Source of the DNA: Gammaproteobacteria bacterium
Lineage (GTDB): Bacteria; Pseudomonadota; Gammaproteobacteria; Steroidobacterales; Rariloculaceae
NCBI GenBank assembly: GCA_022819855.1
Contig: JAJEGN010000016.1
Coordinates: 1-64,000 of the forward strand
DNA length: 64,000 nucleotides
Reading direction: 5' to 3'
Each line of letters begins with the position of its first letter. The stretch's first letter is position 1. The translations under genes were made by a program, and so were the position numbers. Shown here one piece after another: positions 13,233-55,052 of the stretch. The notes beneath the pieces were generated by a model that saw nothing but the letters and a program-made list of their open reading frames with translations, did no database searches and was not told where the DNA came from.

Positions 13233-14138
13233 GTGACGCCGGCGACCATGTACGACGACCCGGAAGTCTGGATTGAGATCGTTACCGGGGCGAGCGGACG
13301 CGCCTGTGCGGAGCTATCGCTCGTGCTCGAGACGCAGGGCGTGGAGCATCAGCGGATACGCACGCCGACGGGCTGGTCGATCAGCGTGCGCGCACACGAT
13401 GCCGCCCGTGCGTCGGAGGAACTTGCCGAGTACCGGGACGAAAACGTGCGGCCGCACGGCGCCAGACCGCCACCGGAGACCGTCGGCAACGGCTGGAGCG
13501 CAGTCGCCGTCTACCTGGTCGTACTGCTCGCAGTGGCGGTCTTCGTGAGACAGTTCACGTTCGGCATCGACTGGCTTGCCGCCGGCCGCGTCGAAGCCGG
13601 CAGCATGGTCGGCGGCGAGTGGTGGCGCGCTGTCACGGCGCTGACGATCCACCGCGACGCGGACCACCTGCTCGGCAACCTCGCGTTCGGCAGCTTCTTT
13701 GCCTATTGGGTGTGCCGTTACCTCGGTGACGGGCTCGGTGGACTTGCGATTCTGGTCTCCGGTGCGCTCGGCAACATCCTGAACGCCCTCATCCAGTCCG
13801 CCGACCACCGTTCGATCGGCGCGTCGACCGCGGTATTTGCGGCACTTGCACTGCTGACGGCCAATACCTGGAAGCGTGGGTTCTGGAAGCACACGCCGCT
13901 CAAGACGCGCATCGCGCCGCTCGTCGCCGGGCTCGCCCTGCTCGCCTACACGGGCGCGGGCGGCGAGAACACCGATATCGGCGCGCATCTTTTCGGGTTC
14001 GTGGCCGGTTTCTGCGTCGGCGTCGTGCTTGCGCGCTATCCCGTGCCGCACAGCCGTTCGACGCAACGCAACGCGGGCCTCGCCGCCTGCGCCTTGCTGG
14101 TCCTGGCCTGGGCCTGGGGGATCGCGGCCTGGTATTGA
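13233..14138 (+). CDS. Rhomboid family intramembrane serine protease
   Basis: EWWRAVTALTIHRDADHLLGNLAFG, SIGASTAVFAALALL, GAHLFGFVAGFCVG; multiple TM segments. Confidence 0.88.
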   Translation: MTPATMYDDPEVWIEIVTGASGRACAELSLVLETQGVEHQRIRTPTGWSISVRAHDAARASEELAEYRDENVRPHGARPPPETVGNGWSAVAVYLVVLLAVAVFVRQFTFGIDWLAAGRVEAGSMVGGEWWRAVTALTIHRDADHLLGNLAFGSFFAYWVCRYLGDGLGGLAILVSGALGNILNALIQSADHRSIGASTAVFAALALLTANTWKRGFWKHTPLKTRIAPLVAGLALLAYTGAGGENTDIGAHLFGFVAGFCVGVVLARYPVPHSRSTQRNAGLAACALLVLAWAWGIAAWY

Positions 14139-14178: not shown

Positions 14179-14297
14179 GGCATGCGGGGAGTCGCACCAC
14201 CGGTCGCTTGAGACACGCGGCGAATACATCCCTGTACGCTCCGCGCGCGCGTCCCTGCGCGCGAGAGTCTCAAGCGACCGGTGGTGCAACTCCCCTT
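14179..14297 (-). repeat. Dispersed hairpin repeat, copy 2
   Basis: 20-bp perfect stem arms 14195-14214/14267-14286 extending outward to ggggag/ctcccc with one wobble; inner CAGGGAC and GTACAGGGATGTA on minus strand. Confidence 0.92.
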
Positions 14298-14313: not shown

Positions 14314-15162
14314 CTAATCGAGAACGCCCGCGATCAGTTCCAGGAAGTCGTCCTCGCCGGTCACGCTCTCGGCGCGCCTTGCATCGACCGTGTAGCCGTA
14401 GTCGGCCGCGAACGCTTCGTAACGCGGTCGGCGGTGGGCGATCAGCGCAGGCAATACCCAGCGTACGAAGTCGTCGGGGACGATATCGTCGGTCGAGGCG
14501 AGGCGGTTCTGGTGGAGGAACTGCCGGAGCTTCTCGTCGATGAACTCTTCCTGGTAGTACATCGGTTTCGGCGCGTCGATGCCGCGCTGAACGAGAGTCT
14601 GCACGAGGCGCTCGTCGGGTTTGAGGTAGACGATCAACGTGTGTTCCGAGAGCAGTTCGTAGGTTCGGTCGTCTTCGAGTTCGACGACGCTGCCTCCGGC
14701 ATCGTTGATGAAGTGATCGTAACCGTAGATCGTGTGGGCCTTCTCGATGAACTCGACGACGTCCCGCATCGCGCCGATTTCCGCCTCGCGGTGCAGGCGC
14801 TGCCGCTTCTTGAACTCATCGACGGGCAGCCCGCCGAGGTCGGGACGACCGATCTTGCCCAGAAACGTCGCGATGGGCTCGAGGTTATGAAACGTGATGT
14901 TGCTTGCGATGTAGATCGAGTCGCTTCTGAGCAGATCGCGGAGAAAGTCGACCTGCATCGCCTGCCGCTTGATGTTGTCGAGGATCGGTTCACCGAGGTA
15001 CTTGGTGCCGATGCGATAGTCGCCGGAGTAGTGGAACCACTTCGACTGGGGCAGCTTGTAGGCCAGCGTGGTCTTGCCGACGCCCGACATCCCCAATAGC
15101 GTAATGGCCTTGTTCGGCCATCGCAGGAACTCGTTTCGCGTCATTCGCACGGCATCGACCAT
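14314..15162 (-). CDS. P-loop ATPase/kinase-like protein
   Basis: Walker A ITLLGMSGVGKTTLAYKL; remainder not assigned to a specific function. Confidence 0.7.
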   Translation of the reverse strand: MVDAVRMTRNEFLRWPNKAITLLGMSGVGKTTLAYKLPQSKWFHYSGDYRIGTKYLGEPILDNIKRQAMQVDFLRDLLRSDSIYIASNITFHNLEPIATFLGKIGRPDLGGLPVDEFKKRQRLHREAEIGAMRDVVEFIEKAHTIYGYDHFINDAGGSVVELEDDRTYELLSEHTLIVYLKPDERLVQTLVQRGIDAPKPMYYQEEFIDEKLRQFLHQNRLASTDDIVPDDFVRWVLPALIAHRRPRYEAFAADYGYTVDARRAESVTGEDDFLELIAGVLD

Positions 15163-29458: not shown

Positions 29459-29653
29459 CCGCGTACCGAGCTGCGGCGGATTCCTCCGCGGATCCGCAGA
29501 CGCGAGTCCGTCCGTCCTCCTCTGCCGCTTCCGATGGCGCCGCCCAACGCCCGATATTCCCGGTATTCTCCCTCCTCGCGCCTTGCCGGGGAGGCGCCTC
29601 GCCGGTCTCGGCGCAACGCGGGACTTTCGCCAGGGACTGCCGGGAGTATCGCC

Positions 29654-31939: not shown

Positions 31940-32250
31940 TGGTGGGCCCGGTAGGACTCGAACCTACGACCAAGGGATTCACTGTAACCCGCCGTTTCCG
32001 GCGGCAGCGGACTATCTCTTCACCCGCAAGTCGCCTTGCTGGGGTGCGGGACGCTCTCGCCTGTCATCAAGAGCACTGAAGCTCTCAGGTAGTCTCTGCA
32101 CCTTCCGCCGGTGTACCGGCGGCTTGGCTCAGGATTGCCGGCACAAGGTGCTGCGGTTCCCCTGAATTCATCCCGTCCACTCCACGGCTTTCACCGCGAA
32201 GGCACCGTTTTCGATGAGTCCCCTGCTCTAACCAACTGAGCTACAGGCCC
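31940..32250 (-). tRNA. tRNA-Ile2(CAU) gene interrupted by a group I intron; CCA encoded
   Basis: Minus-strand exons GGGCCTGTAGCTCAGTTGGTTAGAGCAGGGGACTCAT (32250-32214) and AATCCCTTGGTCGTAGGTTCGAGTCCTACCGGGCCCACCA (31979-31940) fold as a complete cloverleaf with anticodon CAU. Confidence 0.95.
31980..32213 (-). ncRNA. Group I self-splicing intron, 234 nt, IC3-like
   Basis: P1 CAUCG-AAAA-CGGUG across the 5' splice site; CAGGGGAACC (P), GGCAATCCTGAGCCAAGCC (Q), AAGGTGCAGAGACTA (R), AAGAGATAGTCC (S, pairs in P7); terminal omega-G. Confidence 0.95.
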
Positions 32251-32398
32251 ACGCCCGCAATGGTACCACCGGCGCGCCCCGCGAATGCCTGGCCCGCAAA
32301 TCTCATCAAGCCGCGCCTTACATGGAGCATCGCGGATGAATTTCAGGAGCTTGCGAGACAATCGGGGGCATCGCACCTTCAGCCGGCCGCGACCGCAA

Positions 32399-32508
32399 GG
32401 GGAGGCGTACTGCCGCTCGCTTGAAACCCTCGCGCGCAGGGATGCGCGCGTGGAGCTTACAGGGATGTATTTACAGCGTGTTTCAAGCGAGCGGCAGTGC
32501 GCCTCCCC
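32399..32508 (+). repeat. Dispersed hairpin repeat, copy 3
   Basis: 29-bp stem arms 32399-32427/32480-32508 with one T-G wobble; inner CGCGCGCAGGGATGCGCGCG and TTACAGGGATGTA. Confidence 0.93.
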
Positions 32509-32533
32509 GCATCCCTGCGACAAGACGACCGGC

Positions 32534-54902: not shown

Positions 54903-55052
54903 ATCGTTACCTATACTAGGGCATCCCCGTAGCGCACAAGTCGCGTAGTCGGCCGCTCCGCACCAGCGCTGCTCTTCGACCTTGCGGAGTTCGCAAGAAC
55001 ACCGTCCCGGCCCGCAGGAAGGCCAGGCCTTCCACCGTGATAAGGTTCGACG

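Follow-up and report, generated by a model that had tools for sequence, protein, structure and literature searches.

Three similar palindromes are scattered over the 64,000-nucleotide stretch of gammaproteobacterial DNA analyzed here (the window), raising the question of whether their fold is maintained, and not only their sequence, and in what kind of molecule. The original prediction had described a hairpin repeat lying outside genes and had left the choice between a structured RNA and a palindrome recognized by a transposase. All three copies were recovered, none of them inside a predicted gene (Table 1). Copy 1 is cut at its 5' end because base 1 of the window is also base 1 of contig C15, and it scores 88 bits with covariance model R1 (model positions 14-101) and 87 bits with R2. 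Copy 2 sits between convergent genes, a rhomboid gene at 13233-14138 (+) and an unnamed gene at 14314-15162 (-). The fold and its long outer stem are as predicted, but the element is a three-way junction formed by the outer stem and two inner hairpins, and not a single hairpin. The 29-bp outer stem encloses hairpin A, with an 8-bp stem and a CA-NGGA-YG loop, hairpin B, which reads TACANGGATGTA between GC[N] and [N']GC, and a conserved, unpaired TTYAC. Copy 3 folded at -86.4 kcal/mol, compared with -44.9 kcal/mol for shuffled sequences, and none of 200 shuffles did as well.

Table 1. Copies of the repeat in the window, anatomy of copy 3, and a site lacking the element
Feature	Position	Strand	Remarks
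Copy 3, whole element, three-way junction	32397..32510	+	CM R1 133 bits, R2 110 bits; fold z -12
Copy 3, outer stem 5' arm, 29 nt	32399..32427	+	Partner is 32480-32508; covariation in 20/29 genomic pairs
Copy 3, outer stem 3' arm, 29 nt	32480..32508	+	Fold and covariation
Copy 3, hairpin A	32428..32453	+	Loop CAGGGATG at 32437-32444
Copy 3, hairpin B, GC[N]/[N']GC on flanks	32455..32477	+	Loop CAGGGATG at 32460-32467, within TTACAGGGATGTATT
Copy 2, whole element	14184..14297	-	CM R1 127.7 bits; loops at 14250-14257 and 14227-14234
Copy 1, 5' end lost at contig start	1..99	+	Loops at 28-35 and 51-58
Site without element	54926..55027		Sister species G369 has a copy (C24:49889-50002) between orthologous flanks

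The family proved far larger than the three copies first seen. The 3.73-Mb genome was searched with model R1, built from 22 copies, and yielded about 48 distinct copies; the palindromic outer stem makes most of them score on both strands. Contig ends C9, C10, C11, C15, C16, C17 and C19 of this assembly break within element copies, and copy counts from short reads are therefore likely underestimates. Conservation drops within about 18-20 bp outside the 114-bp unit. Some loci (L011 at about 1420-1690, L004 at about 1180-1600, L020 and L048) contain full elements followed by tandem half-copies with a period of about 80 bp; these retain hairpin B and the 3' arm but nothing of the 5' arm or of hairpin A's 5' half, which suggests that the 5' arm can come and go as a single block. 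In another genome, L353:1288-2652 (G579:C1) holds six elements head-to-tail in 227-bp units, each of which also has a GTAGGAGCGGCTTCAGCCGCGAT palindrome resembling a GTAG-tagged REP.

Copies are intergenic and lie mostly downstream of genes: 53 were between convergent and 15 between divergent genes, and the tandem ones were divided into 39 sense and 42 antisense, counts that rest on our own gene caller and carry some of its errors. Between tandem genes there is thus no orientation preference, so that for many copies read-through would transcribe the opposite strand. This absence of bias also dismisses a cis-regulatory leader or 3'-UTR element tied to gene orientation. No conserved promoter was detected in the 60 bp upstream, where conservation ends at about -18, which argues against an independent sRNA gene with a conserved promoter of its own. 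An intrinsic terminator was likewise rejected, as the 3' flank consensus CAaCaCCGcGac, from 91 windows in this genus, has no T run.

Covariation among copies, across genera and at shared loci gives strong support to the claim that the fold is maintained as well as the sequence. Over the 29-bp stem, copies 2 and 3 differ by the five double changes reported earlier (pair columns 9, 15, 16, 20 and 29) and by the two wobble changes (columns 10 and 12), and column 20 does take three states over the three copies, T-A, G-C and C-G. Covariation was upheld when 22 genomic copies were compared: 20 of the 29 outer pairs covary, standard pairs occupy 98.2% of pair cells, both sides changed in 22 of 46 pairs, and the covariation score was 0.297, compared with 0.103 after shuffling and at most 0.068 after sliding. 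In a set of 41 elements from many gammaproteobacterial genera, covariation extended to 28/28 aligned outer pairs and 7/9 hairpin-A pairs. The pattern used to find this set fixed hairpin B, and only elements with CANGGANG in hairpin A and 14 or more outer-stem pairs were retained, which ascertains those parts and inflates the percentage paired. Both sides had changed in 36/43 pairs of these elements, with a score of 0.690 (0.172 shuffled, at most 0.18 slid).

Sister species G369 allowed the same comparison at single loci, since orthologous copies exist in this genome for 16 of the 40 G369 copies examined. Outer-stem cells there are about 96% Watson-Crick, and the outer stem shows 36 compensatory double changes, 20 switches between Watson-Crick and G.U, 3 changes that involve A.C, and 7 broken pairs. 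Because compensation occurs at the same locus, it is not merely a difference between unrelated copies; conversion between copies could still lie behind it. Selection on the fold is real.

The stems also tell which strand is selected. Where one strand has a G.U wobble, its complement has an A.C mismatch, so duplex DNA or strand-blind repair would give the two at equal frequencies. Outer stems overall had 102 G.U and 22 A.C (binomial P ~2e-13), and those in this genome alone had 13 and none. This excess therefore reflects selection on the folded strand bearing CANGGANG. One-strand selection fits RNA, and single-stranded DNA is also formally possible. The ratio of G.U to A.C was 72:8 with the upstream gene in sense and 30:11 in antisense (Fisher P 0.03, post hoc), and this stronger bias at sense genes points to read-through transcripts. 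Of the two molecules originally proposed, the structured RNA is favored by this asymmetry and by the CsrA-motif loops described below, leaving the transposase palindrome as a possible second role in view of the turnover of copies among species.

The original prediction had overlooked the two ANGGA loops, the class-wide distribution of the element and its relation to YPAL. Both hairpin loops read CANGGANG, which is also the RsmE consensus; only N is free, and the two GGA motifs are 23 nt apart. Among 69 copies, the covariance-model matches from two genomes, the A, G, G and A positions of the loop are constant in 66-69, the N is G or T in loop A and G, T or C in loop B, both hairpins have an invariant closing C-G, and the hairpin A loop is CANGGAYG in nearly all. 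Elements of other families behaved alike. In 150 of them, located through hairpin B alone, hairpin A carried CANGGANG in 91 and GGA in 123, although the stems comprised 85 different 5-mers. All 20 model-found elements from nine other genomes had GGA in both loops, even where the hairpin-B stem had changed to TCC/GGA or CCC/GGG.

These loops resemble the sites of CsrA, a global RNA regulator for which SELEX gave the consensus RUACARGGAUGU, mostly in six-base hairpin loops on stems of mostly four or fewer pairs, and of which one dimer can bridge sites 10-63 nt apart, best above 18 nt (PMC7652899). Hairpin B of copy 3 agrees with this consensus at 11/12 positions, and many copies agree at 11-12. 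By the published criteria, the element has predicted CsrA sites, with ANGGA in hairpin loops and at least two sites within 10-63 nt (PMC7652899). This genome encodes two CsrA genes. CsrA was present in 32/33 element-bearing genomes and in 39/46 genomes without the pattern, a difference in the expected direction that is not significant (P 0.13), and co-occurrence proves little because CsrA is very common in the class. The sole carrier showing no CsrA (G069) is 88% complete and has one element copy. Five to eight CsrA-family matches were seen in G298, G342 and G041, where one or two are usual.

The element is partly familiar from another direction. Palindromic sequences of Yersinia known as YPAL or RU-2 were reportedly described by De Gregorio et al. 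in 2006 and by Delihas in 2007. The 168-bp sequence of RU-2, the element also named YPAL, has been published (PMC2759123). Aligned with copies from this study, it gave local scores of 24-35, compared with at most 19 in 2000 shuffles, and the 27-nt stretch GAGCCTACATGGATGTATTTACGGCGT is identical in RU-2 and copy L026. Both have the layout of outer stem, hairpin A and hairpin B, the RU-2 loops being CAAGGATG (hairpin A) and CATGGATG, and both are intergenic, multicopy and palindromic with internal inverted repeats and with filled and empty sites. However, RU-2/YPAL units measure about 167-168 bp whereas the conserved unit here is about 114 bp, making it a relative in a wider superfamily and not YPAL proper; its outer stem differs, and it has many more carriers outside Yersinia. 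Reviews present YPAL as a structured intergenic family. They also describe it as mobile, with insertions that fall in or beside regions of dyad symmetry and create target-site duplications of 3-26 bp, and as co-expressed with upstream genes, possibly affecting their stability (PMC2229807). The literature searched, in which the original 2006 YPAL paper is represented through reviews, contained no link between YPAL and CsrA. Judged by the alignments, the core is homologous to YPAL/RU-2, so that its kind is partly known.

Other known repeats and RNAs are further away. No Rfam 15 family exceeded its gathering cut-off and none was credible at E up to 1, which rules out a known Rfam RNA, including the TwoAYGGAY and CsrB families. 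TwoAYGGAY (RF01731) was proposed to bind CsrA on the same grounds, namely paired GGA-loop hairpins (PMC4333381). This feature is common to CsrB/RsmZ-type sequestering RNAs, TwoAYGGAY and the repeat; the first two are single-locus sRNA genes, whereas the repeat is dispersed, with dozens of copies that each carry two sites, and has a variable closing stem. ERIC (RU-1), BIME and REP/REPIN elements are also intergenic, palindromic, dispersed, found at gene 3' ends and folded as RNA, but unrelated in sequence. REP elements are 20-40 bp long, have GTAG/CGTC tags and often accompany IS200/IS605-family transposase genes (PMC3733652). Y1_Tnp (PF01797) had no match in this genome, which is 97.7% complete, and was detected in control genomes; a REP/REPIN system with RAYT transposase was discarded on this basis.

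The repeat is widespread within its class and turns over. Of 369 genomes in the class, 31 contained the pattern TACANGGATGTAYTYAYNGCG, in as many as 59 copies each and with zero control matches, and its carriers include Microbulbifer, Marinobacter, Rheinheimera, Halopseudomonas, Luteimonas, Lysobacter, Thermomonas, Zobellella and Alishewanella. In a phylum sample of 200 genomes, the 15 matched by the model all belonged to Gammaproteobacteria. Viral contigs gave one match among 2.9 million and plasmids a single partial match, in a 1.8-Mb Halomonas replicon, and such near absence from both collections excludes phage or plasmid cargo. Species differ in which copies they have gained or lost: G369 has copy 2, sister genome G370 lacks it at the orthologous site, and a G369 copy is missing from this genome (Table 1). 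The intergenic flanks at the two empty sites are too diverged to show target-site duplications.

It is thus reasonable to think, with somewhat better than even confidence, that this is a dispersing repeat of YPAL type, and that the RNA transcribed from it docks a CsrA dimer and acts as a decoy or at mRNA 3' ends. The functional form would be an RNA copy of one strand of a short dispersing element of the YPAL/RU-2 type. It would fold into a three-way junction in which the long outer stem, constrained to pair but otherwise free in sequence, clamps a pair of adjacent hairpins that would each present a hexaloop ANGGAN closed by C-G, the predicted CsrA/RsmA site, at a GGA spacing that one dimer could bridge. 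Copies at gene 3' ends would be transcribed through read-through, and bound CsrA may alter the stability of the host transcript. Alternatively, dozens of copies together may hold CsrA away from its other targets. Some features fit CsrA docking poorly: CsrA binding does not account for the strict conservation after hairpin B (the TTYAC bulge and GCG junction), the 8-bp stem of hairpin A is longer than in most SELEX winners, and the elements have no orientation preference relative to neighboring genes.

The conserved junction bases and the even orientation would be at home in a MITE-like non-autonomous mobile element, of which a folded DNA strand is recognized by a mobilizing enzyme, the conserved loops and junction being the binding site of that enzyme and the likeness to CsrA sites coincidental. 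Such an element would also explain the presence/absence differences among species, the avoidance of divergent promoters and the mobility with target-site duplications described for YPAL in reviews (PMC2229807), and single-stranded DNA would fit one-strand selection. We nevertheless consider it rather unlikely. What stays constant in the loops is the CsrA core, and what varies is the single N that CsrA ignores, twice in each element and across different stems. Moreover, the genome has no Y1 transposase, and the element is nearly absent from viral contigs and plasmids.

Less probable still is that the long stem alone, as an RNA hairpin at gene 3' ends, protects or destabilizes the upstream mRNA, as proposed for ERIC and YPAL, with CsrA uninvolved. 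This would leave the two conserved CANGGANG loops and the three-way junction unexplained and sits uneasily with the even orientation in tandem placement, although the 3'-end bias, the stronger one-strand selection at sense upstream genes and the co-expression of YPAL with upstream genes related in reviews are what it would lead one to expect. Finally, the fold could be unselected, with hairpin-templated correction (template switching) at replication making the arms match in any palindrome. The very high pairing and the half-copies that lack the 5' arm as a block are compatible with that process; it predicts equal G.U and A.C, contradicted by 102:22 overall and 20:3 at orthologous loci, and has no account of the conserved loops. 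As a pure template-switch palindrome, the repeat is therefore hardly conceivable.

Short dispersed palindromes are usually taken as debris or simple mRNA stabilizers, whereas this family is under RNA-like one-strand selection. If CsrA does bind, the separate literatures on YPAL-type mobile repeats and on the Csr/Rsm network would join, repeat sites at 3' ends would have to enter the prediction of CsrA targets in many Gammaproteobacteria, marine and environmental, and a mobile element would have been caught enlisting an RNA-binding protein of its host. The recurrence of this design across Gammaproteobacteria, with quite different stem sequences and with YPAL among its forms, points to a putative large, unrecognized pool of CsrA-binding RNA. 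A more speculative possibility, which we hold tentatively, is that the self-dispersing family forms genome-wide CsrA docking arrays (about 50 elements and 100 sites per genome), in which case repeat number and expression, and not only CsrB-type RNAs, would set free CsrA and the fate of mRNA 3' ends. The family is also a large natural set of variants for relating stem length and loop spacing to CsrA affinity.

A group I intron (Rfam RF00028, 65.9 bits) lies next to copy 3 at 31988-32255 on the minus strand, directly preceded by the 5' half of a tRNA, which stops at its CAT anticodon (GGGCCTGTAGCTCAGTTGGTTAGAGCAGGGGACTCAT). ARAGORN found zero tRNAs in the window, and the tRNA, with a CAU anticodon, appears to be split by the intron. 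Two stretches of about 87 bp, at about 32289-32374 and at 29554-29644, have many matches in sister genome G370 and are probably other dispersed repeat families.
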